Below, piece after piece: positions 1 through 62,775 of a stretch of DNA of 64,000 nucleotides. The stretch comes from a virus. How positions within the stretch are numbered: the first letter of the stretch is position 1; every line of letters starts with the position of its first letter. The stretch lies in the IMG/VR virus record IMGVR_UViG_3300042356_000309, positions 1 to 64,000 of that record; one strand, given 5' to 3'. A program made the position numbers and the translations under genes. Below the pieces are notes generated by a model. That model searched no databases, had not been told where the DNA came from, and saw only the letters and a program-made list of their open reading frames with translations.

Positions 1-17
1 GGCTTCAAACTTTTCAT
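1..17 (-). CDS. Start of a small basic protein gene, cut by the window edge
   Basis: The minus strand reads ATG AAA AGT TTG AAG from base 17, identical to the first codons of the 37-residue basic protein at 60762-60875. Only five codons lie in the window. The homology and the -7 box at 22-29 suggest that a second leftward operon like the one ending at 60875 lies to the left of this window. The rest of the gene cannot be seen. Confidence 0.4.
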
Positions 18-179
18 ATAGCAAAGTTAAAAAATTAGTCGCATATTCTGGGGTGGGGGGTAATATATACAATTTCACGTGAACATACGATAAAGGAAAC
101 GAGTTCAAAATGAGCATGGGGGTATCCATTTCTATAGATTTCTCTGAACTTTTCAGCTTTTTGCCTAGCAGGTAGGCAT
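1..179. repeat. Copy A of a 179-bp conserved control-region block
   Basis: This stretch matches 60859-61037 with only three mismatches that I can find by eye. That is much closer than the neighbouring early genes, which differ at many positions between the two copies. It includes a G-rich run (GGGGTGGGGGG at about 50-60) and, on the minus strand, a TAACTTTG -7-type box at 22-29 followed by an ATG at 17. The role is unknown. Its position between a leftward and a rightward operon suggests a promoter, origin or packaging element. Confidence 0.85.
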
Positions 180-470
180 ACCCTTACATATATACATACA
201 TACATCGCACACATTCATGGTGACCTTGATGCATGGCACACATACATACACGCATACATTTATCCCATGTGTAAATGTACCCATGCAGATAGGTATACAT
301 ACATATATACATAACAATATATCTACCGTGGTATATACTACACATACATATATACATATAGATATACTTACCTAGGTATATACTACATCTGTATACATCT
401 ACGCACGCACGCACGCACATACGCATACGCACACGCACGCATACACGCATACGTACATACATTCAATACG
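180..470. repeat. Alternating purine-pyrimidine tract, copy A
   Basis: About 290 bp of mostly alternating purine-pyrimidine DNA made of CATA, CACG, GTAT and CGCA steps, for example repeated ACGC units at 401-418. The equivalent place in the second copy (61038-61311) is a similar tract with a different sequence, while both flanks are conserved. Composition rather than exact sequence seems to be kept. Such tracts can adopt left-handed or flexible DNA; a function here is inference. Open frames through it are low complexity and are not called as genes. Confidence 0.75.
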
Positions 471-662
471 TGATTTATTGTCACGTGTCGGCAAAGGTTT
501 ATTTTTTTAGCGCATACTTTCAGACAGGAAATCACAACTATCACCCGACCAACAGACCAAAATATCTTGAGTAACACATTTAGCGTAAATTTTTTTTCAT
601 TTTTTTCTCGCTGATTATCAACGAGTTACGAATTATTTTCACTTGTGTTGTTACTTGTCGTG

Positions 663-691
663 TTACTTTTTGTTTCCTTTTACATTATATC
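663..691 (+). promoter_or_regulatory. Early promoter-like box A1 (TTACTT-N17-TATATC)
   Basis: TTACTT and TATATC are separated by 17 bp. The same TTACTTTTT-N12-(A/G)TTATA arrangement occurs at 765-793, 61494-61522, 61745-61773 and on the minus strand at 57461-57489, always with the same spacing. It resembles a sigma-70 -35/-10 pair, unlike the TAnnTTTG promoters found in the late block. Confidence 0.6.
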
Positions 692-764
692 TTCAGAACA
701 TCAAACGAGATGTGGCTGAGACGGCAAGAGGGGAGGGGTTGAAAAAAAAATTTTAGGTAGTGTG

Positions 765-793
765 TTACTTTTTCAAAGCATCTGCATTATACT
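765..793 (+). promoter_or_regulatory. Early promoter-like box A2 (TTACTT-N17-TATACT)
   Basis: Second member of the tandem pair, with exact 17-bp spacing. It lies just upstream of the boxA at 806-816, so the RNA start would fall close to the boxA. It corresponds to 61745-61773 in the second copy. Confidence 0.65.
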
Positions 794-805
794 AGAAACA
801 ACACA

Positions 806-816
806 GTTCTTTGACA
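806..816 (+). promoter_or_regulatory. boxA-like antitermination site, copy A
   Basis: GTTCTTTGACA matches the boxA family used by NusB-S10 (for example CTCTTTAACA in E. coli rRNA leaders) and the form I recall from Bacteroidota 16S leaders. It sits about 15-25 bp after the promoter at 765-793 and is identical, with its flank AAACAACACA, in the second copy at 61786-61796. No rRNA follows; the early phage leader does. Confidence 0.65.
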
Positions 817-996
817 TCTTGTAACATGCGTTTCCTTAGGTAAAGTTCCAAGGGACAAACAAAGCTCCCCGATGTGACATCGGTACAAGCTAAGATTAAA
901 TGGTAAACTTTCACGCATGGGTTTACATCCAACAAACCAAATTAAAGGACATCCGATAGGGGCACGGGGCTGAGAAGTTCTGCAAGCCAATGCCCC
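817..996 (+). other. Structured, non-coding early leader RNA, copy A
   Basis: No convincing gene lies here. Hairpins visible by eye are GTTC-CAAG-GGAC (about 850), CCGATG-TGA-CATCGG (about 878-892), GTAAAC/GTTTAC (about 903-925) and a long-range GGGGCA/TGCCCC pair (about 958-996) that closes just before the ribozyme. CTTAG near 836 can pair with CTAAG near 892. The second copy has a different leader sequence here, so only the flanking boxA and ribozyme are conserved. Confidence 0.45.
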
Positions 997-1045
997 ATGT
1001 CATGTGGTGTGTGCCACATCTGATGAGTCCAAAAGGACGAAACAT
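997..1045 (+). ncRNA. Hammerhead ribozyme, copy A
   Basis: All core elements are present in order: GUC cleavage triplet (999-1001); stem I AUGUGG/CCACAU (1002-1007 with 1014-1019, loop UGUGUG); CUGAUGA (1020-1026); stem II GUCC-AAAA-GGAC (1027-1038); GAAA (1039-1042); stem III AUGU/ACAU (997-1000 with 1042-1045). Stems I and II are closed and stem III is open, so the topology is type III with a short 4-bp stem III. Cleavage would follow C1001. A second copy at 62226-62274 keeps the core and shows compensatory changes in stems II and III. It lies 27 bases upstream of the first early gene. Confidence 0.9.
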
Positions 1046-1071
1046 TATTAACCAAACAAAAACCAATCACC

Positions 1072-1176
1072 ATGAGTAAAGTAATCAAGATTGAAGGTCA
1101 ATTCGAAATTATCGGATTCTTCGTAAACGATGTATTAGTTAGAACTACTAAGCGAAGAGTAACTAATTGGAAGTAA
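1072..1176 (+). CDS. 34-residue early protein, conserved in both copies
   Basis: First gene after the ribozyme. The ATG follows the recurrent leader 'TTAACCAAACAAAA...CACC' with no Shine-Dalgarno. The protein is small and basic and ends in RRVTNWK. The homologue at 62671-62775 is identical at 31 of 34 residues, and most base differences are silent, which supports real coding despite the size. In the second copy the gene lies third instead of first, so the cassette has been reshuffled. Function unknown. Confidence 0.8.
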   Translation: MSKVIKIEGQFEIIGFFVNDVLVRTTKRRVTNWK

Positions 1177-1319
1177 ACGTATAAGTAAATGGGTGCGCAA
1201 ACGTTAGGTATTGCAATATAACTATTGAACACATACAAAAATTAATTAACCAAACAAACGTGAATTATCTATCAAGGCGAGACGGCACGTTATTCATTAA
1301 CCAAATAAAAACAATCACC

Positions 1320-1442
1320 ATGAGAGCAATCGAGAGAATTTTAGACGTAGTTTATTTAGCTATATTAACTACATCTGTAGTGTTAACAATCGTAATGTTA
1401 GCAACGGGACATGCGCATTCGTTCTACACAGGACAAGGGTAA
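1320..1442 (+). CDS. 40-residue single-span membrane protein
   Basis: A short polar N-terminus (MRAIERILD) is followed by one hydrophobic segment at about residues 10-29 and a small polar tail. The start is the ATG after CAATCACC; an upstream GTG in frame lacks the leader motif. The homologue at 62303-62425 is the first gene of the second copy, with 21 of 40 residues identical. Probably an inner-membrane early peptide; role unknown. Confidence 0.75.
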   Translation: MRAIERILDVVYLAILTTSVVLTIVMLATGHAHSFYTGQG

Positions 1443-1469
1443 TTATTAACGAATTAAAAACTAGAAATC

Positions 1470-1694
1470 ATGAACGGACAAATTCACACAAGCGTAGGAT
1501 TCTCAAAGGTAGAAGGTAACGCAAGAAAGCTAACAATCGTAGAGCAGTTGACAAGAGTAGTCAACATGAACATAGACGAAATCGATCACCCTATTCACGG
1601 GAGAATCAATGTAGAAAAGGATGTTGCTAGTTATCTATTGAGATACGAAGAGGAGCATTTGTATAGATTTAAGTTATCAATGTTTAATAAATAG
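1470..1694 (+). CDS. Hypothetical early protein, 74 residues
   Basis: The ATG is preceded by the recurrent leader AACTAGAAATC. The protein is charged, soluble-looking and has no recognised domain. It ends with a short basic helix (LYRFKLSMFNK). It lies six bases before the next gene in the early run. No homologue was found in the second copy within the window. Confidence 0.7.
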   Translation: MNGQIHTSVGFSKVEGNARKLTIVEQLTRVVNMNIDEIDHPIHGRINVEKDVASYLLRYEEEHLYRFKLSMFNK

Positions 1695-1699
1695 AAATC

Positions 1700-1891
1700 A
1701 TGTCGACAATAGTAGCAAACAGCGTATCAGCTAAGAATAAAGTTGATGCGCTAAAGAGTTATGGATACGAACAAATATACTTCAAGGGAAGCAATCCATA
1801 CGTAGTTGAATGGGGCATATATGTGTACCACATCTTCGCATTAAGAATAAAGAAAGGAGAGTATTTAATATTTAAAGAAAGGAAGATATGA
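1700..1891 (+). CDS. Hypothetical early protein, 63 residues
   Basis: Mixed beta-type sequence with alternating hydrophobic residues (YVVEWGIYVYHIFALRI) and a basic C-terminus. Its TGA overlaps the ATG of the next gene by 4 bp, which suggests translational coupling. In the second copy the equivalent position (63593-63784) holds a 63-residue protein of similar size without clear sequence similarity. Function unknown. Confidence 0.65.
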   Translation: MSTIVANSVSAKNKVDALKSYGYEQIYFKGSNPYVVEWGIYVYHIFALRIKKGEYLIFKERKI

Positions 1892-2028
1892 ACAAGAGAA
1901 TGTTTCTGATATCCATCGGCATGATTGCCATGGGTATCGTCTGTTCGGCACAAGGTATCGAAGAGTCAGGTATAATGTACGTACTTGGTGCATTATTTAT
2001 GTTGAAATCTAAAGCTTATAAGTTATGA
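1888..2028 (+). CDS. 46-residue small membrane protein, conserved in both copies
   Basis: Two hydrophobic stretches, about residues 5-20 (FLISIGMIAMGIVCSAQ) and 28-40 (IMYVLGALFML), joined by a short acidic linker. This suggests a hairpin membrane protein. The homologue at 63781-63930 keeps the layout and most residues. It overlaps the genes on both sides by 4 bp (ATGA), showing tight coupling. Function unknown. Confidence 0.75.
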   Translation: MNKRMFLISIGMIAMGIVCSAQGIEESGIMYVLGALFMLKSKAYKL

Positions 2029-2099
2029 GTAATCACCAAAGATTAATCCTAATAGGATTGGGAAGGACAATGAGAAATTATATTAACCGTTTTAATTAA
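2025..2099 (+). CDS. 24-residue basic peptide, conserved in both copies
   Basis: A very short reading frame coupled by ATGA to the previous gene. The partial homologue at 63927-64000 is identical at 22 of 24 residues (…LILIGLGRTMRNYINRFN) while the DNA differs at many third positions, so it is clearly under protein-level selection. It looks like a hydrophobic-basic amphipathic peptide. Function unknown. Confidence 0.75.
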   Translation: MSNHQRLILIGLGRTMRNYINRFN

Positions 2100-2105
2100 A
2101 TCACC

Positions 2106-2291
2106 ATGAGAACAGAAGAAATCAAAAAAGAAATCGACATCATCATCTCTGAGATGCAGAAATGTTTTGATGTTATGTGGTCAAACGATTTAGAGGAATC
2201 TCACCAAGTAATCGTCACTGAAGACACAGATGAAGTTAAGTATAACGGATGGCTTGAACGTATGTTTGAATTACAAACCAAATTAAAATAA
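2106..2291 (+). CDS. Hypothetical acidic early protein, 61 residues
   Basis: Starts MRTEEIKKEI after the leader AATCACC. It is mostly helical and acidic, with no known domain. Its first residues resemble those of 2453-2638 (MRTEQIL), so the two may be distant paralogues or share a selected start region. Confidence 0.65.
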   Translation: MRTEEIKKEIDIIISEMQKCFDVMWSNDLEESHQVIVTEDTDEVKYNGWLERMFELQTKLK

Positions 2292-2297
2292 ATCACC

Positions 2298-2456
2298 ATG
2301 AATGTAGAAATTAAAATAAGTCTAGCGAATGGATTCGACATAGACCATGCTATTCAAAGCATAACAGATGCGCTATATTACAGCGGAAACGTTACTCAGT
2401 ACGAGTACGATTTGATAGACCATATATTAACCGAAATTAAAAACCAAATGCCATGA
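2298..2456 (+). CDS. Hypothetical early protein, 52 residues
   Basis: Begins at the ATG after AATCACC. The acidic sequence has a helical pattern (IDHAIQSITDALYYSG) and ends in EIKNQMP. It overlaps the next start by 4 bp. No recognised family. Confidence 0.65.
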   Translation: MNVEIKISLANGFDIDHAIQSITDALYYSGNVTQYEYDLIDHILTEIKNQMP

Positions 2457-2638
2457 GAACAGAACAAATTTTAGAACTAGCGAGCGAGTTAGCACACGAC
2501 AGAACGTTATACGAATCGGGAGACATTTGTCTATGTGAAGACGACATGTATGACGGAGAAAATTATACCGAAGAAATACAAGACCGTTTCAACGAATGGT
2601 ATGACTATTACTTAACTAAAATAGAAAACGTATTATGA
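2453..2638 (+). CDS. Hypothetical acidic early protein, 61 residues
   Basis: Strongly acidic, with two cysteines close together (ICLC) and many D/E/Y residues. It is coupled by ATGA overlaps to both neighbours. Small acidic early phage proteins often act as DNA mimics or host-enzyme inhibitors, but nothing in this sequence proves such a role. Confidence 0.65.
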   Translation: MRTEQILELASELAHDRTLYESGDICLCEDDMYDGENYTEEIQDRFNEWYDYYLTKIENVL

Positions 2639-2793
2639 GAACAATAGTTTTAAATAGTCACCTAACCATTAGCGGATACACTATAACGGGTGAGTACGAT
2701 GTGATAGGTACATTCTTCCACAAGGAAACGAATGAGTACATGTACGTGTTACAAGATAGGAATGATTTGAGTATATATGTAATAACTGAATAA
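2635..2793 (+). CDS. Hypothetical early protein, 52 residues
   Basis: Beta-rich pattern (SGYTITGEYDVIGTFF…EYMYVLQDRNDLSIYVI) consistent with a small beta-barrel or SH3-like fold. Coupled by a 4-bp overlap to the previous gene. Function unknown. Confidence 0.65.
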   Translation: MRTIVLNSHLTISGYTITGEYDVIGTFFHKETNEYMYVLQDRNDLSIYVITE

Positions 2794-2804
2794 AATTAAA
2801 CGAC

Positions 2805-3176
2805 ATGAAAAATTTATTAGACTTCTGCGATGCTGTTTTGGAAAATGGCGGAGCAACATTCAACCTAGTACTGGGCGCAAATCCTACAACTGGATACGCA
2901 GTAAGCATGCAAGGATACGAGGACACGATTGATTTGTTTGGCAACAAGGTAACACAGACTATGCTAGTCAATTCGTTTGTACGCAAGTATGTAAGCGAGC
3001 ACGGATTTGAGTTGTCGCTAGTTGACTACAACTTGGGCGGATGGATACACGACAAGAAGTTATACCTAGACATAAGCATAGTATTCGACAATGAGACGTA
3101 TGCGAGGGAGTATGCTAAGGATAACAATCAGCTAGCTTATTTTGATTTAACTAACGGAAAGGAGATAATCGTATGA
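2805..3176 (+). CDS. Hypothetical early protein, 123 residues
   Basis: The largest product of the first early run. Starts MKNLLDFCDAVLENGG after AAACGAC. It mixes alpha and beta elements, with a central GYAVSMQGYED stretch and an acidic C-terminal half. I do not recognise a domain. Its end overlaps the following small membrane gene by 4 bp. Confidence 0.7.
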   Translation: MKNLLDFCDAVLENGGATFNLVLGANPTTGYAVSMQGYEDTIDLFGNKVTQTMLVNSFVRKYVSEHGFELSLVDYNLGGWIHDKKLYLDISIVFDNETYAREYAKDNNQLAYFDLTNGKEIIV

Positions 3177-3265
3177 CAATAGTTCTTAAAATATTTTTTG
3201 TATGTTTCGTATCTTTGTTTATAATTGAGAAGTTCATTAGATTTATAGAAAGACACGGATATTAA
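3173..3265 (+). CDS. 30-residue single-span membrane peptide
   Basis: Almost entirely one hydrophobic helix (residues 2-19, rich in F, V, L and I) followed by a basic tail (KFIRFIERHGY). It is coupled to the preceding gene by an ATGA overlap. Function unknown. Confidence 0.6.
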   Translation: MTIVLKIFFVCFVSLFIIEKFIRFIERHGY

Positions 3266-3276
3266 AACTAATTATT

Positions 3277-3480
3277 ATGTACCAAGCAGTAATAATACCT
3301 TACGGAGTACCCGAAGAGTGGGTACTAAATGTTTTGTTCGGGAACACAGACGAGGAGCGATTAATGGAGATAGCATCTCAGCTCCTCGAACTTGGTGTTA
3401 GGTCGTTCACTATAACGCACTACTCACCAATCAGAGATACAGGTGTAATGATAGCAATTGAAGACATCTGTCTGAACTGA
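3277..3480 (+). CDS. Hypothetical early protein, 67 residues
   Basis: Last gene before the 310-bp control region. Preceded by AACTAATT with no Shine-Dalgarno. It has an alternating hydrophobic start (MYQAVIIPYGV), an acidic middle and a beta-like C-terminus. No recognised family. Confidence 0.7.
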   Translation: MYQAVIIPYGVPEEWVLNVLFGNTDEERLMEIASQLLELGVRSFTITHYSPIRDTGVMIAIEDICLN

Positions 3481-7229: not shown

Positions 7230-8043
7230 CATAGCACCACTATTCCTTGGGACTGATGGGTTAACAGACAAACAGCAGGAGAGATTGAACGAGCTGTCTA
7301 CAAGACACGCTAACTTTCTCACTGAGTCTGACCCTAAGCTCAAGGCTAAGTACAAGCTAACAGACAACATGGAGAGGGAGCTCGATGAGTTGCTCGACAT
7401 GAAGGAGAAGTACGATAACGGAGACTTCGAACTACCAGATGGAGCGAAGACCCTTATCGAGGAGTACGTAGATGCTGACGTATACCAGTACAGGACAACG
7501 TTCGACAGTAAGGAGGTTAGCAAGGGTAGAGATGAGGACGTTGAGAACGCAAGCATAGAGCTATACAATGAGGTGTACTTCACATCGCATAGGAAGATAG
7601 TTGAAGGAGATAAGTACTACGAGCTTTCTTATAACAGTATTATTGGTCATCCAGACATCGTGTGTGAGGACACTAAGATGGTTAAGGATGCCAAGAGTTC
7701 ATGGAGTAAGAAGACATTCCCTAAGACAGTAAAGAAGGCAGAGAACAGCACATATACTTGGCAGGTTCGGACCTATCTATACATGTTGCAGGGTATAACT
7801 GGTGATCGGGACTGGCGTTTTGGTGTGGTGTTTCACGCACTTGTAGACACACCAGAGGGCTTAGTCCCAGATTACGAGGACGATAGTCTTCACGTCTCTA
7901 GCAACCTACAGGACAACATCAGAATAACTGCTGTACCTGTGGAGCTTACAGAGGAACACGTTCGTCACATGGACAGACGTATCAAGATGGCATTGAAGTA
8001 TGCAGATAATTATAAACAATTTTTATTAAACAAAAACAAATGA
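7210..8043 (+). CDS. RecB/Cas4-like PD-(D/E)XK nuclease (277 residues)
   Basis: The nuclease core is at about residues 138-200: GHPDIV, then VKDAKSS supplies the D...DAK metal-binding pattern. A downstream Q in WQVRTYLYML fits the QxxxY motif of RecB-family exonucleases. A charged helical N-terminal region precedes it. Probable role: 5' or 3' exonuclease in phage recombination or DNA processing, working with the ssDNA-binding protein coded immediately after. The start chosen (ATG 7210) overlaps the previous gene by 20 bp; no later start keeps the N-terminal region. Confidence 0.8.
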   Translation: MQFRTHNIAPLFLGTDGLTDKQQERLNELSTRHANFLTESDPKLKAKYKLTDNMERELDELLDMKEKYDNGDFELPDGAKTLIEEYVDADVYQYRTTFDSKEVSKGRDEDVENASIELYNEVYFTSHRKIVEGDKYYELSYNSIIGHPDIVCEDTKMVKDAKSSWSKKTFPKTVKKAENSTYTWQVRTYLYMLQGITGDRDWRFGVVFHALVDTPEGLVPDYEDDSLHVSSNLQDNIRITAVPVELTEEHVRHMDRRIKMALKYADNYKQFLLNKNK

Positions 8044-15549: not shown

Positions 15550-18500
15550 TTATTTGTTTTTGAAGTTTTCATTATAATATATCAGCGCAGTTTTAGATAT
15601 TCTAGAGTTTGTCTGTTTCATAATAGTATTTAATTCATCTAGTTCTTCGTCATCTAAACTTGCCCCATATCTCTCGTACATATAAAGAGCTTGCAGTTTA
15701 GGTTTATTTTCGAATACTATGTTTAACAGTCTTCTATCTAAACTCATATTATTTATGTAGTTATTATATTTATTATAATACGAATCTAATTCTGATTTAG
15801 TAACTGGTTTAAACCTTTCATCAATCATATCTAAAAGTTCTCCAACATTTAATTCTTTTCCAGAGTCATATATATCCTTTATATCATCATAAGTTTTTGT
15901 AGTATTATAATACTCCTCATCATTTTCTTCTATTAACATTTCAGCTATCCTGTCTTGTTCTTTTTTATCAAGAAGATTTTTATTAGTAGATCTAACTAAT
16001 TTTCTGCTTGTATTTTTGATAAATTCATCCGTTGCGATAGAAAAAGCTTCTCCCATATCAGTCTTATCATCAAACATTCCATTAGCAACAGCATACAGTA
16101 TAGATAATGTAGGATTTGTAGATTCAGATGTAATTATTTTTTCAACCATCGCTTGAGTTCTTATAGGAGACATTCCAAATATAGGTGCTATAGTTTTAAA
16201 TAAGCTATTTACATTATCATCATTTATACCTTCATACTCTGGACTTATTACCCTATTTTCCCATCCCCTTTGTTGTTTAAATATTTTCTCTCCTCTAAAT
16301 GTATCATAGTTTAATCCGTAAGCTATTCCAGCAGCAACCAATGGGTTTTTACCTAAAACGTTTTCTGGATAGAATGGAACTGATGATTTAACTGTATTCC
16401 AAAAAATATCATTATTTACATCGTAATCTACACCCCTAGAACTAAAAAAGAATTTTGTAATCATCTGTTCTGCAAATGTAGTAATTACTGAAAGCCCAGG
16501 AAGTTTTTTAATTCTTTTATATTTATACTCTCCGTTCTCATCTTTTTCTCCAGTAAATATTATATGATAGTTAGCTTTTTCGTATTCTGGTATAGAGTTT
16601 ATAGCATCCATCATTTTTTTGTTACAATCATCTTCATCTTCTGCTTCAGCACAAGCACGTTGTAGTAATACAGATATAGAGTATGCAGCTATTCCAGCAG
16701 ACATTATAGATCCTTGAATCATATTGCTTGCAAATCCGTAAGGATTTTTTGTAGCGTATTCCCTAGTTCTTCTAAGGCCTTGCATACCTGCATTAAAGTA
16801 TGGCATAACAGCATCTATATTTTTTGCATATTCTCCACCTTGATTAAAGTCAATAACCTCCCTAGCTTCTCTAACAGCATCATGCATTATATCTTCAAGG
16901 TCTTGTCCTTGAGGATCTAATCCATTATTTTCTTTTTTATATTTTTTAATTAGATCACTCTTTGTTTTTTCATATACAGAAAGTCTAAACGCCTCTTCTG
17001 ATTTTTCACCTAAATATGATACAACTTTTGCATAGGTAACCAGAGTCTTTCTAGGTAATGAAAGAACTGGTAAGCCAAATACTTCTATCGTATATTCTTT
17101 TGATAGAAGCTGTCTAATTCCATCGGAAGACATGTAGTCCATTGCTCCACCATGCTCTAGGTATTCTCTTTTAATATTCTTATACTTTATTCCAAAAGAA
17201 GCTCTTAAGAAATTCTTTACAAAATCAAATGCAAGATGAGGAGCTCCATAAAATTTTCCAATAATTGGCATTTTACCATATACATCTGATAAAAATAAAA
17301 TGTTAGAAAAGTCAGCAGGAACGTTACCAAGTATAAAGAATGGGTTTCCAGATGTAGCAAAGAATCTTAAAAGAGATCCTCCAGATAATTTACCTATTTG
17401 TTTTAGTGTATCTGGAACATTATTTAAATCAAGTATTTGATCTGCATATTTATTCTTTACGATCATCTTTCTTTTTACACCTTTCTTATAAAATATTACT
17501 TCTTTATATCCAAGAGGTATTTTATTCTTATCGTATTTGTATATTAATGATCCTGTCTTAGTTTTTCCTATAACTGGATTATCTAAAAATATTTCAGATA
17601 ACGCTTGTTTTTCTATATCAGTAGCATTTTCTATACTATCATTTATAGCATTAAGAAGTTTATTCTCAAAGTTTTTTCTTTCAGATGCATTTATTGCCAT
17701 CATCATTAGCCACCTTGTGTCAGAGGCAAATGCATTTTCGTTTTCATCACCAAGTCTTTTTATATCATCACTCTTTATACCTAGTGTTTTTGACATTGTG
17801 TCTATCTCAGTTGATGTAAACTGATCCTCACCTATTATATATTTAAGAGTTTTAATTGGAGAGTACTCAATGTCTTTTAATGTATTGTATGTCTCTTCAT
17901 TTATTCTGCCAGATTTAAAAGCATTTCTTAAATTTTCTTCATAAACCTTGAAGTATTCATTTGTTCTATTTTCAAAATCTGCATACTTCTTATCTCCAAT
18001 AGCATTTTTTATTTCTTGCAAATCTGCCTGAGCTTCAGCTGTAGAGTATCCATCCATACCCTTATACGGCTTCATTCCTCTTTCAGCTCTATTTTTATTA
18101 ATAGCTATAATACGTTTTGCGTATATCATGGCGTTAAGAAGATCCATATCTTTAACGCTAAGCAATAAATTTCTATTTAACTTTCTTCCATATATCTTTT
18201 TCTGAGCCTCTTTAAATCTTTCGTTTGCCCATCCAGAAGCACCAGCTTTATTTACTAATAAATTTAAAGCTCTCTTTGAGTATACACCAGCTATATTTCT
18301 TAAAGCTCTTTTTGCATCAGCTTGTCTATCTTCAAACTTTTGTATATACTCTTCAGCTAAATCTTTAGCCTTGGTCTTTTTTGTTCTTTCTTTTATATAT
18401 TTTTTATTTTCATCTAATATATCTAAAGCCTTAACGTTCTTTAGGCCCTTCTGTCTTCTGGCCTTAGTTATACTTGTAGCGTTTCTTTTAGTGTCTATTG

Positions 18501-21500: not shown

Positions 21501-24500
21501 CAACAGGTTGTTGCACAACTGTTTCCTCCAAAGCAGCTAGTTCTGCATCATATTTAGCATTTACAGCTTCTTCAATGGTTTGGTCATTGTTAACTTGATA
21601 AGTTTCTTTAAGACCATCTTCTGTATAAGTATTAAGTTCTTCTTGTCTTCTTGTTTCTATATCAGCTTTCTGAGCCTCTACATCTACTACTTGCGTCTCC
21701 TGGAGCCCACCGCCTGCGATAGTGCTATCGCCAAGATTTGTTTCTGGCTGCGTGGCTTGCCCGACTGTCCCTTCTCCTTGCCCGACTTGAGGTTGTCCTT
21801 CATTAGTTCCCTCACGTTGTACGACACCGCCTTCTGCTGTGCCTTCTTGCTGCTGTTCTGTGCTTTTCTTAATGGCATTTTTAGATATTTTTTTTAGTTC
21901 ATCATTAATCTGCTCTATCCTTTCTTTCTGGCCAGCAACTAGAGCCTCATCCTTACCAGCTATCTCTTCTTCTAGTTCTTGTTTTTCTAATAATAAGCTA
22001 TATGACTCTATCTTATCAGAAGTAGATAATTTATTTGGAATAGAATCCAATAACTCTCCAGTTTTTTTAACAAATTTTATCTTTGCATCAGCTTCATCTT
22101 TAGATATTTCTCCCTTTTGAAGCAGTATACCTACACTTGTTATATATGCATCCCTATTTCTTACATCAGATGTATAATCATAAAATTTCTTAAACTCTTT
22201 ATTTGCAGATGCAGATGCCATCCTGTTTGTTACTATGCTTGCACCATTAGACATCGTACCAAATATAGCACCACCTGCCATTCCTAAAACTACATTTTCA
22301 GCTAATGATGATATATACTCTTTTCTACCTTCATCAGTACTAAGATCTGGAGCATCTTTAAAATAATCTAGATTATATGCAGCATTTATAGCTGCCTTCA
22401 TTCCTCCTTCAAATATAAATTGAGTTCCTTCTGTACCTCCTTCTGCAACTGCACCAACAGTAACATCAAACGCTCCAGCCGCAATAGCCTTTCCTATGTT
22501 CTTAGATATCTCCCTTTTAATAGTTTCTTCAGTAGCATCTTTTGGTAGGCCAGCTAATGATCTGCCTATTATAGATGTTATAACTCTTGAGTTAACTGGG
22601 GCCTTCATTTGTTCAAATCCATACTTCTCCAGCTTACCCATGACAAGTCCATAAGCAAAACCGTATGCATTTTTTTCTAATATTCCCATGTTGTCAAACT
22701 CTTCTGCTGTCATTTGCTCCCTCATGTCTGCATATGCCCCAAGTATAAATCCAACTGATCCTCCAAGAGATGACCCCAAAGTTCCTCCAAGAGACCCTAT
22801 AGCTTTTTCCCATATACTCCTATCTTCAGAAGACATCCATTCTGGAGTTGTTTCTTCCATAAATCCAAGTGATGACATAGTTTCTACACCAAGCTTTTTA
22901 GAATCTACTATAAATCTTGAAATGTCTCCATATACCTTATTGTTTATTTCTTCTGGAGTCATTCCTTTTTCCAACATGTTATTATATAATGTTGGTTCTA
23001 CAAAATTTTTAGCATCTAATCCTAACTTAACTAGATCCGTCTCTACATACATAATAGCTTCAGCTATTCCCATAGATGCATCCATAAAATTAGATATAAA
23101 TGAACCTACAATACCACCACTTTGTTCTCTTTCAAGAGAATTTAAACCTGCTGTTTTTTCTAGGCCTATAGATAGTTTATCTAAGTTTGCAGAAGATTGC
23201 TCGTAGTTGTATTTATCCTGCTCTACCTCTATTGTCTTTTTGTCTATTTCTTCTTGAGCTTTTTGAAAATCAAACGGATAATTTTTTATTACTTCAAGAT
23301 TTTCATTTGCTAGATTTAAATATGTTTTATCTTTAGTTTTATCGTATTCTTTTTGATAATAATCAGCCTCTGCCTTTTTAGATTTTAAGAAGTCCTCCTC
23401 AAATCTTACTCTGCTTATGAGTCCACCTAAATCATTGTTTGATTTTTGATATATTTTATATGCTGAATTAGATTGTTCTTCTACACTTTTAGCAATATTC
23501 TGCCACATGTCACCTCCTAGAGATACATTCTTATCCATCATATTTTTATATACTGATGGGTTCCTGTATATCATATCGATCATTGCTCTCTCATACTCAT
23601 CTTTATTTACAGCATTGATGTCTCCGTTATTAGAGTTAAACTTTCTCTCTAATATCCTAAAGTCTTTCTCTTTATTCCAAGTATCTATTAACCAGTCAGA
23701 AATTTCTTGAGGCGTGCTGTCTAGAGAAAATTTATTTTGTCCAGGAGAGGTTATATTATCTCCATCTATAAAGAATCCATACTTATTCCAAAGAGATGAG
23801 TACTCTCCAGAATTTATTGATTTCTTTACATCATCATAAAAATCAATATCTAGATTAGAAAAGTATTTTTCATCATCTTTATCTACTGTAAAGTATCTCT
23901 TTTTAGTTTCTCCGTATACCTCTTTCTTTTTTTCTATTTCTTTTTCAGCTTCACTCTGAAGGTAATTCCACTCTCCCCAATAATTTTGATTATAATAAAG
24001 ATATGCCTTACCCATATCTATCTCTTCACCCTCTAAGCTATACATCTTTGATCCGTCTGGACTTTTATATGTATTCTCCTGTATCCATTCTGGGAATGAT
24101 GGGAATTTTTTATAAGATTTTCCAGAAATAAATTCATGAAATTTATCAACAGCAGATTTGTTTGATTCATTTATTTCTTTCTGTATATCTATCTTTGTTT
24201 TTAAGTTCTCAGTAAATCCTTTTGTACGTCTCTCTATTTCTTCAAACTTACTTCTTGCTGGATCAATAACAGCTTCAGTGAACCACTCTATTAATTTTTT
24301 TCTTGGTTTTTTAATAGATTTACCATCTAAATAAACCGTAGCCTCCTCCATTGTTTCTTTAAACTGACCTGTTTCTGGATCATATAATGACCCAGATGTC
24401 ATATAGTCTCTAGTTGAGGCATACTCTAGTTCCTTTCCTACAGGAACCATAGCAGGTATAAGCCCAGACTGTCTTAGTAAGAAGGCTGTTCTTTCAGCGT

Positions 24501-25128
24501 CATTGGTCAATGAATTATACTCTTGTAGTTGCTGAATAGCTTTAGATGATGAGTTTGGATCGTACTCCCCCTTAGCAAATTTTTGAAAATCTACTTGACC
24601 TAACTTTGCAGCATTTTGCAAGTCCATAAGCATTTTTTCTTTGGGACTCATTTCATAGTTGTCCAAAACGCCCATTTGCTTCCTCCACTCTCTATCTGCA
24701 ATTTGAGAGTTCCAGTCTGTTTCTTGAAGATTACCCTTTAGTACTTCATCTTTTTCTATAGCATTTTGTACAGGGTATAGAATATTTTCTTTGTATTCTT
24801 GATCTGGACTTTTAGTAGTTGTTGTATCTACGTTTCTTTGCAAAGACGAGGATACCGAAGGCTCTGGCATCCCCATTTCTGGTGTAGCCAATGAACCACT
24901 TGTTGGATCTTCCATTGATGGTGATACCAACTCTTCTTTTTTTTTTAATGGTGTATACTTTATGTCAAAAGTTTCAAAGTCAGTACTTTCAATACCGTCT
25001 CTAGTAAGTACACCGTGTACCTTTTTTCTGTAAATAGGGTCATTAAGCTGGTCTTCAAACTCACCTAATGTTTTTGTGTAGTAACCTCCTTCTGATAACT
25101 TATTGTATAAATCTTCTACTAACGCCAT
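15550..25128 (-). CDS. Giant polyvalent virion protein, probably ejected (3192 residues)
   Basis: By far the largest gene and the end of the late operon. Recognisable parts, N to C: helical coiled regions (about 1-1100) with glycine-rich hydrophobic segments near 780-800; a low-complexity Q/E/G/T linker (about 1100-1145); a zincin-type metalloprotease with AHEVFHAVL (HExxH at about residue 1471); a region with YIFHHYSNQ and repeated aromatic motifs (about 2025-2160) typical of large-polyvalent-protein-associated domains; and a C-terminal part with NPFFILGNVPADFSNILF (about 2600). Such proteins sit in the capsid and are injected with DNA. Codon use is A+T-rich throughout, with a slightly G+C-richer patch at the linker. 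Exact enzymatic activities are unproven. Confidence 0.8.
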   Translation of the reverse strand: MALVEDLYNKLSEGGYYTKTLGEFEDQLNDPIYRKKVHGVLTRDGIESTDFETFDIKYTPLKKKEELVSPSMEDPTSGSLATPEMGMPEPSVSSSLQRNVDTTTTKSPDQEYKENILYPVQNAIEKDEVLKGNLQETDWNSQIADREWRKQMGVLDNYEMSPKEKMLMDLQNAAKLGQVDFQKFAKGEYDPNSSSKAIQQLQEYNSLTNDAERTAFLLRQSGLIPAMVPVGKELEYASTRDYMTSGSLYDPETGQFKETMEEATVYLDGKSIKKPRKKLIEWFTEAVIDPARSKFEEIERRTKGFTENLKTKIDIQKEINESNKSAVDKFHEFISGKSYKKFPSFPEWIQENTYKSPDGSKMYSLEGEEIDMGKAYLYYNQNYWGEWNYLQSEAEKEIEKKKEVYGETKKRYFTVDKDDEKYFSNLDIDFYDDVKKSINSGEYSSLWNKYGFFIDGDNITSPGQNKFSLDSTPQEISDWLIDTWNKEKDFRILERKFNSNNGDINAVNKDEYERAMIDMIYRNPSVYKNMMDKNVSLGGDMWQNIAKSVEEQSNSAYKIYQKSNNDLGGLISRVRFEEDFLKSKKAEADYYQKEYDKTKDKTYLNLANENLEVIKNYPFDFQKAQEEIDKKTIEVEQDKYNYEQSSANLDKLSIGLEKTAGLNSLEREQSGGIVGSFISNFMDASMGIAEAIMYVETDLVKLGLDAKNFVEPTLYNNMLEKGMTPEEINNKVYGDISRFIVDSKKLGVETMSSLGFMEETTPEWMSSEDRSIWEKAIGSLGGTLGSSLGGSVGFILGAYADMREQMTAEEFDNMGILEKNAYGFAYGLVMGKLEKYGFEQMKAPVNSRVITSIIGRSLAGLPKDATEETIKREISKNIGKAIAAGAFDVTVGAVAEGGTEGTQFIFEGGMKAAINAAYNLDYFKDAPDLSTDEGRKEYISSLAENVVLGMAGGAIFGTMSNGASIVTNRMASASANKEFKKFYDYTSDVRNRDAYITSVGILLQKGEISKDEADAKIKFVKKTGELLDSIPNKLSTSDKIESYSLLLEKQELEEEIAGKDEALVAGQKERIEQINDELKKISKNAIKKSTEQQQEGTAEGGVVQREGTNEGQPQVGQGEGTVGQATQPETNLGDSTIAGGGLQETQVVDVEAQKADIETRRQEELNTYTEDGLKETYQVNNDQTIEEAVNAKYDAELAALEETVVQQPVAEEVVIDKPTIATNSSQELERVKAVTPEAEDGATFNLDGTVYDGVGLVVPVVSINTTVEEATPEMIADFVEQHADKIGDNETVKVGIYKFPNSNEMSIDLNVVAPESSREQAIEFGRLADQESLFDLGSFQNVKTGGTGKNPMQFSGAQFKEIAKALKEGRLPNVFEQTAPSQSSTGTVISGTDVEIENRAAQISKPRMAKIVANAAKAVSRILPNTKFIVHDTRDSFAAIAGDTESGGYFDPATGEIHINLEQANARTVAHEVFHAVLINAVKTEANAALTTRKMIEAVSKKIDSNPKLKKYLDDFASQYEENIQNEEKVSELVGMLSEYYMEAPESVKDVIKRWIDRIAKSFGLNPFNRNEVYDVLTTIARKTAKGKTIKQKDVKKIESSTEISNANKRFQSNFSDFVSKLTFVFDKNGNKFKKLEDDGYITRNKSIKDFNGEYMFLHQPDAAFSGMIYKDGEILVEGKGGVFYPIKFHEDGYFWASTDETANKMAKDLNKVFEQNGGVIYMGLTTAPYDKLLSSTTMSNSVLDFFLSKAFDKNFSITPSQLKTMLNNAAKVTREKKTLIKKDGKPVLDKKGNKQYRIKLVGLGTQFKLNKSDSVDILASRIKELLNPDITSFEDRKTFVEELIKEAANVIRSNPKSVEQFGKLFSQGIQNKYFKGITKTGKLSISAANMTQALSEMFTEPMLKEGVKRDKGGQVYAVLELRGKVKDVNSDKHESYPKAIQSEKANNKVTLHILKDRFNWSEVFEDFETNDIVASKERENKIFPTSGVSVRGLRVNTSKIQDQGPAPRRQKALQKEVADKLTEDGNGNYIFHHYSNQKRETIKPRSGDNMITGRDEAAALSSVGGVAQFYTQEGQKEAGVGPVLHTVVVPKDKVYYLQEDQENFYDEAKRQFLEVRPGQAFSPNYQAAWISKVAADNGYDMLVSKWKGDQLRAQTVKELTPIEENIPFKEQEADVYKVGDEIIVYGGKATITSMDGTVATFKGERMSGSIDTKRNATSITKARRQKGLKNVKALDILDENKKYIKERTKKTKAKDLAEEYIQKFEDRQADAKRALRNIAGVYSKRALNLLVNKAGASGWANERFKEAQKKIYGRKLNRNLLLSVKDMDLLNAMIYAKRIIAINKNRAERGMKPYKGMDGYSTAEAQADLQEIKNAIGDKKYADFENRTNEYFKVYEENLRNAFKSGRINEETYNTLKDIEYSPIKTLKYIIGEDQFTSTEIDTMSKTLGIKSDDIKRLGDENENAFASDTRWLMMMAINASERKNFENKLLNAINDSIENATDIEKQALSEIFLDNPVIGKTKTGSLIYKYDKNKIPLGYKEVIFYKKGVKRKMIVKNKYADQILDLNNVPDTLKQIGKLSGGSLLRFFATSGNPFFILGNVPADFSNILFLSDVYGKMPIIGKFYGAPHLAFDFVKNFLRASFGIKYKNIKREYLEHGGAMDYMSSDGIRQLLSKEYTIEVFGLPVLSLPRKTLVTYAKVVSYLGEKSEEAFRLSVYEKTKSDLIKKYKKENNGLDPQGQDLEDIMHDAVREAREVIDFNQGGEYAKNIDAVMPYFNAGMQGLRRTREYATKNPYGFASNMIQGSIMSAGIAAYSISVLLQRACAEAEDEDDCNKKMMDAINSIPEYEKANYHIIFTGEKDENGEYKYKRIKKLPGLSVITTFAEQMITKFFFSSRGVDYDVNNDIFWNTVKSSVPFYPENVLGKNPLVAAGIAYGLNYDTFRGEKIFKQQRGWENRVISPEYEGINDDNVNSLFKTIAPIFGMSPIRTQAMVEKIITSESTNPTLSILYAVANGMFDDKTDMGEAFSIATDEFIKNTSRKLVRSTNKNLLDKKEQDRIAEMLIEENDEEYYNTTKTYDDIKDIYDSGKELNVGELLDMIDERFKPVTKSELDSYYNKYNNYINNMSLDRRLLNIVFENKPKLQALYMYERYGASLDDEELDELNTIMKQTNSRISKTALIYYNENFKNK

Positions 25129-60761: not shown

Positions 60762-60875
60762 CTACTTCTTGACACGGATCTTCGGTAGTGACTTCTTTAG
60801 TGAAGGCTTCTTAACGATCAATCTCCTAAGACTAGGATTCTTCAACCCCTTTATTTTTGGCTTCAAACTTTTCAT
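60762..60875 (-). CDS. 37-residue very basic peptide
   Basis: MKSLKPKIKGLKNPSLRRLI, then KKPSLKKSLPKIRVKK. Repeated Pro-Lys/Leu-Lys units give an antimicrobial-peptide or DNA-binding character. A TAACTTTG box (60880-60887) lies just upstream, and the same box and start codons occur at 17-29. Small but with a consistent codon pattern and a conserved start in both copies. Confidence 0.6.
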   Translation of the reverse strand: MKSLKPKIKGLKNPSLRRLIVKKPSLKKSLPKIRVKK

Positions 60876-61037
60876 ATAGCAAAGTTAAAAAATTAGTCGC
60901 ATATTCTGGGGTGGGGGGTAATATATACAATTTCACGTGAACATACGATAAAGGAAACGAGTTCAAAATGAGCATGGGGGTATACATTTCTATAGATTTC
61001 TCTGAACTTTTTAGCTTTTTGCCTAGCATGTAGGCAT
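60859..61037. repeat. Copy B of the 179-bp conserved control-region block
   Basis: Matches 1-179 with three mismatches seen by eye, including the identical G-rich run and minus-strand TAACTTTG box. Marks the start of the second, diverged unit. Confidence 0.85.
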
Positions 61038-61311
61038 GCACGCACACATGCACGCACGTCACACGTGCACATCGCACGCACGCACATACGTCACGCATGG
61101 ACGTACACGCACACGCATACACACATGAGCATGTGCACACAAGCACGCATACATGTACGCATGTACATGAGCGAGCGCACATATGTACGCACATACATAC
61201 ACACATGCATGTGAGCGTACACACATACACACGTGCACACATAAGCGCAGGCATACACACATACGCACATCACGTCATGCACACACGCACACATCACGTG
61301 CGTCCGCTCGG
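61038..61311. repeat. Alternating purine-pyrimidine tract, copy B
   Basis: Rich in CACGCA, CATACA and ACGTGC steps. Same place and similar character as 180-470 but a different sequence, while both flanks align. Minus-strand frames here (cysteine/valine/arginine-only proteins) are artefacts of the repeat. Confidence 0.75.
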
Positions 61312-61522: not shown

Positions 61523-61744
61523 ATCAGAACACCGAACGAGGTGACACAGATTTGACAAGCGACACACATGGGGATGAACAACAAGACCTTCAGTCTAGTC
61601 AGCGTATGCGACAGCACTAGTGAAAGTAATGAGGGCACGGAATAGTAGTCTACTGAGAACGAACATGGATGCGATGATACGAGCTACATAGATTGAAATT
61701 GCTTAGTAACATCAGTCAAACAAAAAAAATTTTAATGCAGGTTG

Positions 61745-61773
61745 TTACTTTTTCAAGCAGGTTGCATTATACT
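61745..61773 (+). promoter_or_regulatory. Early promoter-like box B2 (TTACTT-N17-TATACT)
   Basis: Counterpart of 765-793; followed at the same distance by the boxA at 61786-61796. Confidence 0.65.
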
Positions 61774-61785
61774 AGAAACAACACA

Positions 61786-61796
61786 GTTCTTTGACA
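61786..61796 (+). promoter_or_regulatory. boxA-like antitermination site, copy B
   Basis: GTTCTTTGACA, identical to 806-816 together with its flanks, while the DNA further downstream differs. Selective retention supports function. Confidence 0.65.
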
Positions 61797-62225
61797 TAAC
61801 GATACAACGATTAGCACATTTAATCATGGCACATAAGACGAGTAATACCCCTAGCTGATAGGTTTCGCAGTCGTAGGTAACAAAGCATCCTACTAATCAT
61901 AGCAACGGCAATGTGAATCAGATTGTATCAAAAGTAATAGATTGCTCGGATGATAGAGATATCATCTAACGTAGGAGCAAAAAAAAATAATTAATCACTA
62001 TGGGGGCGGAAAAACAATTAATCCCTATAGGAGTAAAAAATAATTAATCACTAACGGCATAAGTGCCGTAACAACATCTAATGTATAACAAAGGTAATGA
62101 TGTATGAACACTATACGTAATTGTATATAGCATGTGGCTGTCATTGAATGTTATACAAGCGAACAATTCCTTTCGGTGGTGGGATAACCGACTAGTAAAT
62201 AGGGAGAGACAAACCAATCTCTCCC
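61797..62225 (+). other. Structured leader RNA, copy B, longer than copy A
   Basis: About 430 bases with no clear gene. It holds hairpins GTAGG/CCTAC (about 61874-61894), GATGAT/ATCATC (about 61951), ACGGCA-TAAG-TGCCGT (62054-62069) and a three-unit repeat (61989-62049). A 15-codon frame MGAEKQLIPIGVKNN (62000-62047) begins inside the repeat and could be a leader peptide, but evidence is thin. Confidence 0.4.
61989..62049 (+). repeat. Tandem AATTAATC repeat, three units
   Basis: AATTAATC(A/C)CTA begins at 61989, 62016 and 62042, periods 27 and 26, with A-rich spacers. Units resemble the A-rich translation-start leaders of this phage. Absent from copy A. Confidence 0.6.
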
Positions 62226-62274
62226 GTGTCATGTGGTGTGTGCCACATCTGATGAGTTCGAAAGAACGAAACAC
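62226..62274 (+). ncRNA. Hammerhead ribozyme, copy B
   Basis: GUC triplet (62228-62230), stem I AUGUGG/CCACAU, CUGAUGA (62249-62255), stem II GUUC-GAAA-GAAC (62256-62267), GAAA (62268-62271), stem III GUGU/ACAC. Relative to copy A, stem II has a C-G to U-A change and stem III an A-U to G-C change, both keeping the pair. Same position, 28 bases before the first gene. Confidence 0.9.
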
Positions 62275-62302
62275 ATTATTAACCAATTAAAAAACAATCA
62301 CC

Positions 62303-62425
62303 ATGAAAGCAATTAACAGAATCGTAGACGTAGTTTTTTTAGGAATCTTAACTACAGCATTAGCACTAGCAATCTTAATGATTGTAACTGGTAACGTCCA
62401 TGCATCATTCACGAATGTAGGGTAA
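62303..62425 (+). CDS. 40-residue single-span membrane protein, copy B
   Basis: Homologue of 1320-1442 (21 of 40 residues identical): a polar start, one span at about residues 10-28. Here it is the first gene after the ribozyme. Confidence 0.75.
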   Translation: MKAINRIVDVVFLGILTTALALAILMIVTGNVHASFTNVG

Positions 62426-62453
62426 TTTATTAATCAATTAAAACTTAGAAATC

Positions 62454-62621
62454 ATGAACGAATTAATCAACAGAATCAAGCACGACATCAAGCAAGCTGA
62501 GGCAAGAAGAGATGCATTTGAAAAAGGTACAAGGGAGTATGGTTTTAATCAAGGTATTGTATCCGCATTAAAAACAGTTTTATTCGACATGCGAGAATTA
62601 AGGTTAACTGATGAGTCTTGA
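62454..62621 (+). CDS. Hypothetical helical early protein (55 residues)
   Basis: MNELINRIKHDIKQAEARRD, then EYGFNQGIVSALKTVLFDMRELR: charged helices with no known domain. No counterpart in copy A within the window. Preceded by the leader AACTTAGAAATC. Confidence 0.65.
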   Translation: MNELINRIKHDIKQAEARRDAFEKGTREYGFNQGIVSALKTVLFDMRELRLTDES

Positions 62622-62631
62622 GTAGACGAAA

Positions 62632-62645
62632 GGGGATGTATCCCC
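62632..62645 (+). other. Intergenic hairpin GGGGAT/ATCCCC
   Basis: Perfect 6-bp stem with a two-base loop between two early genes and no T run; a possible RNA-processing or stability element. Confidence 0.4.
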
Positions 62646-62670
62646 TCTTAACCAAATAAAATACACCACC

Positions 62671-62775
62671 ATGAGTAAAGTAATCAAAATTGAAGGAGCT
62701 TATGAGATTATAGGCTTCTACGTGAATGACGTATTAGTTAGAACTACGAAGAGAAGAGTAACTAACTGGAAGTAA
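62671..62775 (+). CDS. 34-residue early protein, copy B
   Basis: Identical to 1072-1176 at 31 of 34 residues; differences are Q/A, F/Y and F/Y. Preceded by the conserved leader CTTAACCAAATAAAA. Third gene here instead of first. Confidence 0.8.
   Translation: MSKVIKIEGAYEIIGFYVNDVLVRTTKRRVTNWK

Follow-up and report, generated by a model that had tools for sequence, protein, structure and literature searches.

Hammerhead ribozymes predicted to cut early transcripts just upstream of start codons in Bacteroidota podophages

Cis-acting hammerhead ribozymes, as judged from their modelled folds, probably cut the early transcript of Bacteroidota podophages just upstream of start codons, yielding shorter mRNAs. 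Three such ribozymes lie in the window, by which we mean the whole 64,000-nucleotide stretch analysed here (positions 1 to 64,000 of the IMG/VR record IMGVR_UViG_3300042356_000309). A type III copy would sever a boxA-like leader from the first early gene, and a type I copy would cut between two early genes, exactly where the UUAACC leader of the downstream gene starts. In most relatives, of both types, the cut would separate neighbouring cistrons of a polycistronic RNA. Over more than 200 sites with compensated stems, the place of the cut and the shape of its products follow a consistent rule.

Hammerheads of the early locus

The two type III hammerheads occupy positions 997-1045 and 62226-62274 on the plus strand. 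In the left copy, stem III is formed by 997-1000 and 1042-1045, stem I by 1002-1007 and 1014-1019, and stem II by 1027-1030 and 1035-1038, with UGUGUG (1008-1013) as loop I and AAAA as loop II; the right copy has the same anatomy shifted by 61,229. In both, stem III is open and stems I and II are closed by loops, which is the type III topology. In all three hammerheads of the window, the core (C3 U4 G5 A6 N7 G8 A9 / G12 A13 A14 A15 U16 H17) is free of mutations, and the three stems are paired next to the core without multiple mispairs. The original prediction, which had recognized the two type III copies and their intact cores, was borne out both by reading the letters and by a structure-aware scan, and the differences it listed between the copies are exact (C-G to U-A in stem II, A-U to G-C in stem III, and AAAA to GAAA in the loop). 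Across the whole 66,234-bp record, the scan returned three hammerheads, with scores of 34.8, 34.8, and 38.6; 60 approximately dinucleotide-keeping shuffles of the record, searched on both strands, gave one hammerhead-like fold, with a score of 24.9.

In a covariance-model search, a type III model (R2) made from eight type III sequences of other phages, with the window excluded, matches the copies at 66.6 bits (E 3e-19) and 59.8 bits (E 5e-17), and the fold supports the predicted cut sites after C1001 and C62230. The Rfam model RF00008 scores the same copies at 36.5 bits (E 1.6e-6) and 33.5 bits (E 6.4e-5), below its gathering cut-off of 48.5, and a search of the window with Rfam at the gathering threshold returned no match. 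Default Rfam annotation thus misses the type III copies because their scores fall under the curated cut-off, and they are filed here under the structural hammerhead class, not under the RF00008 model. Minimum-free-energy folding of single type III copies did not recover stem III, as expected for an open stem of 4 bp. Two further matches were rejected as chance, namely a weak hammerhead match at 64669-64713 (GAAT, inside an ORF) and a match of the type I covariance model (R1, likewise made from other phages only) at 24944-25017 on the minus strand (E 0.02).

The surroundings of the type III copies follow a common plan. An AT-rich promoter-proximal block with TATACTAGAAACAACACAGTTCTTTGACAT lies at 743-817 (plus strand) and is 88% identical to its counterpart at 61722-61797 (plus strand); no promoter itself was identified at this block. 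The boxA-like GTTCTTTGACAT (plus strand, 806-817 and 61786-61797) is identical on both sides, and its resemblance to boxA suggests that this leader may act in antitermination. Abutting the 5' side of stem III, the plus strand carries a hairpin that is kept with different bases, GGGGCA...UGCCCC at 959-996 (-16.9 kcal/mol, equalled by 1 of 40 shuffles) and GGGAGAGA...UCUCUCCC at 62202-62225 (-12.6 kcal/mol, equalled by 0 of 40). After the cut, hairpin 959-996 would be left at the 3' end of the leader RNA. Its interpretation as an intrinsic terminator was rejected, the sense direction being without a U tract. Downstream of the left ribozyme, UUAACCAAACAAAAACCAAUCACC at 1048-1071 (plus strand) forms the leader of the first early gene; it is a recurrent early-gene leader, with the ATG 23-24 nt after UUAACC. 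The gene itself (1072-1176, plus strand) encodes 34 aa (MSKVIKIEG...) and has no function assigned. On the right side, the first gene (62303-62425, plus strand) encodes 40 aa and is a relative of ORF 1320-1442. As had been proposed, the ribozyme has the conserved promoter-proximal/boxA-like block on one side and the first early gene on the other.

The copies had been described as a pair within one window. Two copies are indeed present, but their interpretation as two loci of one genome was dropped after analysis of the repeats at the ends of the record. Exact repeats of at least 60 nt occur only there (1-125 equals 60859-60983, and 3276-3402 equals 66108-66234), so a single early locus, represented by alleles from two strains that were joined in assembly, most likely accounts for both type III copies; a tandem duplication is a much less likely alternative. 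The stretch 60859-66234 begins and finishes like 1-3402, with broad similarity between and a partly changed gene order, and the implied circle measures about 60.9 or 62.8 kb, compared with 60.85 kb in the nearest complete relative, MW202828. If the copies are alleles, as is probable, the covariation between them represents a comparison between strains. The promoter block is 88% identical between the alleles, and the ribozyme with its following leader 87%, whereas the leader body between them has no significant similarity (best E 0.09), indicating that the cut site is kept and the leader sequence is not. In addition, the late and early genes are separated at 180-470 and 61030-61300 by some 300 nt of microsatellite-like DNA in which purines and pyrimidines alternate (CA/CG/TA runs); it differs between the alleles and might serve as an origin or be a spacer prone to form Z-DNA.

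With MW202828, an uncultured circular phage genome of 60,850 bp, the terminase shares 67% identity, and with the Flavobacterium elemo, Maribacter Panino, Cellulophaga, and Tenacibaculum podophages 31-42%. Two blocks of early genes, one from 1 to 15.5 kb and one from 62.3 kb onward, point rightward, and the late genes between them point leftward.

The original prediction overlooked a type I hammerhead in the same operon, at 62602-62653 on the plus strand, with a predicted cut after C62647 (R1, 71.8 bits, E 1e-13). Its stem I is open and its stems II and III are loop-closed, as in the type I topology. Its best Rfam match is RF03152 (RAGATH-1), at 26.2 bits against a gathering cut-off of 56.3. 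Stem I pairs GGUUAA (62602-62607) with UUAACC (62648-62653), and the latter strand also supplies the opening six bases of the next gene's leader. This UUAACCAAAUAAAAUACACCACC leader (62648-62670, plus strand) would begin with the 5'-OH left by the type I cut, and the gene behind it (62671-62775, plus strand) encodes a protein 91% identical to that of 1072-1176. On the other side, the last codons of a 55-aa gene (62454-62621, plus strand) encode the 5' half of the ribozyme, and its UGA stop (62619-62621) lies inside loop II. TTAACCAA on the plus strand followed by a start codon occurs at eight places in the record, with the start 23-24 nt away in seven. Only one of these eight leaders carries the type I ribozyme, indicating that the UUAACC leader is an independent element, borrowed by the ribozyme as stem I. 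UUAACC leaders without a ribozyme precede many early genes of this phage, so cutting is not needed for each gene.

The same gene thus follows a type III ribozyme in one allele (1072) and a type I ribozyme in the other (62671), and small early genes are shuffled between the alleles, as would be seen if the ribozymes were inherited or exchanged along with these genes and brought no benefit of their own. However, compensatory changes maintain every stem, and the occupation of junctions by two topologies, and by other ribozyme classes in related phages, points to selection for cutting there, and we regard mere hitch-hiking as highly improbable.

Relatives, covariation, and hairpins at the upstream end

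The primase was the query that recovered related records; among the 38 records sharing it, R1 matches 15 and R2 matches 3. A scan of viral contigs for GGTTAACTGANGA..CGAAA gave at least 120 stretches, and U-H-TTAAYC follows within 80 nt in 137 of the 141 distinct viral matches listed, compared with 2.3% of random 80-mers. Collection by structure from viral contigs yielded at least 148 distinct type I hammerheads, mostly intergenic. The start codon lies 12-32 nt past the cut (median 22 nt) in 130 of the 148 listed, compared with 12.6% of random positions. A stop codon of the upstream ORF was found for 134 of those listed, nearly always between -9 and +20 of the ribozyme start, with clusters at +3 and +7, inside GGTTAACTGA. 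For type III, a pattern that set only core and loop letters and left the stems free matched at least 77 distinct sequences. Among the 77 listed, 66 are intergenic and 11 stand at operon heads, stem I is paired at 6/6 positions in 76 and stem II at 3/3 in all 77, and 92% have a start codon no more than 40 nt downstream (26% at random).

Relatives make the covariation, first noticed between the two window copies, much stronger. In type III, 10 of 14 pairs have changed on both sides (score 0.908, versus at most 0.19 with slid partners); in type I, 10 of 16 pairs have done so, and sliding controls score far lower. The near-invariance of type I stem I is partly an effect of selection, because most relatives were found with a pattern fixing GGTTAA. 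Likewise, the loops of the listed type III sequences are strongly conserved (TGTGTR/TGAGTR with NAAA), loop I being partly fixed by the search pattern. The 4-bp stem III, which had been called unusual, proved ordinary, with two fixed and 2-4 more pairs in 72 of the 77 listed type III relatives. Nor is the motif an oddity of leaders, most relatives of both topologies being intergenic. Hammerheads require a tertiary contact between loops I and II for speed at low Mg2+. No such contact was identified in the type I hammerheads, and with an open 6-bp stem I this makes their speed at cellular magnesium uncertain.

The relatives nearly always score under Rfam thresholds. BLASTN of the type I consensus against phage records gave no convincing match, and the 34-aa first early protein, the promoter/boxA block, and the leader (BLASTN against phages) yielded nothing useful as queries; no relative was recovered with DNA patterns in which TTAACCAA had to follow the type III core. 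Such short, divergent ribozymes therefore need models, since covariance models found copies in the elemo phages and in phi19:3 that BLASTN did not. R1 and R2 had no match in MW202828, the closest complete relative, or in the isolates Panino, phi38:1, phi46:3, Calle_1, Gundel_1, and BT-TP2. In bacterial genomes, matches to the type I pattern were mostly chance, with the leader (UH followed by TTAAYC) in 10 of 84.

Several contigs are individually noteworthy. At 7691-7746 of one contig (L013, G009), the predicted type I cut falls immediately before the AUG and would give a leaderless mRNA. Six type I hammerheads lie in an 82,750-bp contig (L190), and a repeated element of the form AAAAGUCAGGUGCAGACUAUAACAGGCACA comes after every one of them. 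Another contig, 5.8 kb long and binned as Aliivibrio (L285), has nine, with a start codon soon after nearly all cuts, and is probably a misbinned phage.

The two types differ in what stands upstream of the cut. A strong hairpin abuts stem III in 54 of the 77 listed type III sequences, compared with 4.8% of random positions; by site, it is present at 51 of the 66 intergenic and 3 of the 11 operon-head ribozymes among the matches listed. None of the 147 type I hammerheads listed for this comparison has an abutting upstream hairpin, which fits the fact that their own stem III, a hairpin with a median of -10.5 kcal/mol among those listed, remains on the upstream RNA. Upstream fragments of either type therefore tend to end in a hairpin, whether the abutting one (type III) or the ribozyme's own stem III (type I). 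In both window copies the hairpin comes after a noncoding leader, and at operon heads it is found in just the 3 of 11, so the argument rests mainly on the intercistronic relatives. This anatomical regularity is the strongest hint of orderly mRNA processing over destruction.

Two other readings of the cut were weighed. Cleavage could expose early mRNA to decay and so shut off or tune genes, perhaps under the control of a switch that keeps the ribozyme inactive; in one variant, a ligand could bind to those stem III inserts that contain a conserved three-way junction. Five records do share the stem III insert CAAUUAAAUGA..UCAGCC..GGUUUG, but nearly all members have plain stem III hairpins, and both pieces mostly carry terminal hairpins or intact leaders, which suggests preservation; down-regulation appears very unlikely. 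The insert itself is located in type I stem III of L108, L109, L099, L110, and L123 (G011, G012, G042, G044, and G026) and forms a conserved three-way junction with compensated hairpins that might bind a ligand.

Alternatively, the piece cut off, either the boxA leader RNA or the segment between ribozymes, could be a functional small RNA, with the mRNA not being the product of interest. Type III and type I ribozymes flank a 417-nt segment (62231-62647) in one allele, which with 5'-OH and cyclic-phosphate ends could be circularised by a ligase, and the leader RNA would finish in a stable hairpin. On the other hand, the leader sequences are unlike between the two alleles, most relatives lie between protein genes and their pieces are coding, and Perreault et al. 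searched for spliced or circular products of hammerhead arrays and detected none (PMC3088659). We consider a small-RNA product unlikely, and processing of the early mRNA remains the preferred reading.

Cultured phages and proposed mRNA processing

Both topologies also occur in cultured phages. The Flavobacterium elemo phages (host sp. BAL314) carry a type III hammerhead ahead of gp59, the first gene of their leftward early cluster, after a promoter-like TTTG-N19-TATATTTG, and a type I hammerhead inside this cluster, between gp64 and gp66. In the elemo record NC_055854, the cuts are predicted on the minus strand at 18146/18145 (type III) and 16310/16309 (type I). In stem II of the type I hammerhead, two compensated pairs differ between two elemo species. 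The gp65 annotated on the plus strand of NC_055854 (16289-16396) overlaps this type I ribozyme in antisense and is unlikely to be a real gene. Cellulophaga phage phi19:3 (host Cellulophaga baltica #19) has a type I hammerhead between gp051 and gp050, with its predicted cut at 21775/21774 of KC821608, as well as a Pistol ribozyme between gp046 and gp045 (KC821608, 20369-20436, minus strand; 46.5 bits, cut-off 34.5). A type-P3 twister ribozyme (42.5 bits) at 174-241 of contig L129 shares this phage contig with a type I hammerhead at 609. The occurrence of different ribozyme classes at gene junctions suggests that cutting there, not a particular sequence, is selected. The elemo/BAL314 and phi19:3/C. 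baltica #19 pairs offer cultured systems for a direct look at the predicted 5'-OH ends.

Hammerhead self-cleavage after H17 leaves a 2',3'-cyclic phosphate and a 5'-OH. By analogy with this established chemistry, cuts after C1001, C62230, and C62647 would give a cyclic phosphate on the upstream piece and a 5'-OH on the downstream piece. The latter would be an mRNA that opens with a short leader after a type I cut and with a hairpin, right from its first nucleotide, after a type III cut. At its 3' end the upstream piece would usually have a hairpin, a few nucleotides, and the cyclic phosphate, the hairpin being the ribozyme's stem III in type I and the separate abutting one in type III. The likely purpose would be to break up a polycistronic early RNA, without help from proteins, into shorter mRNAs whose 3' ends are protected and whose leaders are uniform, through which small early genes would gain separate stability and expression; we infer both cleavage in vivo and a benefit of this kind for stability or translation. 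A broader proposal, on which we are evenly divided, is that this Bacteroidota phage lineage uses self-cleaving ribozymes of any class or permutation as a general intercistronic signal, leaving a hairpin end upstream and a 5'-OH near the start codon downstream, and thereby converts early operons into single- or few-gene mRNAs without a protein nuclease.

Relation to known ribozymes

The role of hammerheads in prokaryotes and phages has been described as an open question (PMC6155905, PMC10085705), and we found no literature on ribozymes in these Flavobacteriia phages, most subscription journals lying outside the search. Intergenic phage hammerheads and the idea of RNA processing are already known: according to Perreault et al. 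(2011; PMC3088659), hammerheads occur in prophages and bacteria in clusters flanking single genes or short gene blocks, bacterial arrays flanking phage genes cleave in vitro and in E. coli, and long phage RNA was proposed to be cut down in this way to shorter mRNAs. What appears to be new is the anatomical rule, its scale in this lineage, and the cultured hosts.

In comparison with the set of Perreault et al. (PMC3088659), the family reported here has an identical core and topologies. However, the genes there were mostly prophage genes of other hosts, and the text consulted gives no anatomical rule, whereas the present ribozymes make up one coherent family in relatives of the Flavobacteriia podophages, with cultured examples, a start codon about 22 nt past the cut, a downstream leader that builds stem I, and usually a hairpin at the upstream end. 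For the Mu-like phages, a published summary reports hammerhead and twister ribozymes near phage genes and calls the biological reason unknown (PMC10085705). As here, several self-cleaving classes are enriched near phage genes and near one another, but the present lineage is another one, and its ribozymes lie in the early region, in podophages that are relatives of Elemovirus and Pachyviridae.

Among Rfam families, RF00008 (Hammerhead_3) shares the type III stem order and an identical core with the window copies (36.5 and 33.5 bits), which differ from it in their short stem III, NAAA tetraloop in stem II, and UG(U/A)GU(G/A) hexaloop in stem I, and stay under its cut-off of 48.5. RF03152 (RAGATH-1) is the best Rfam match for the type I hammerheads of the window (26.2 bits), L189 (28.6 bits), and elemo (27.8 bits), and like them has an open stem I and closed stems II and III. 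In contrast, the type I set has another stem I sequence, lacks the 5' hairpin of that model, and scores far under its cut-off of 56.3.
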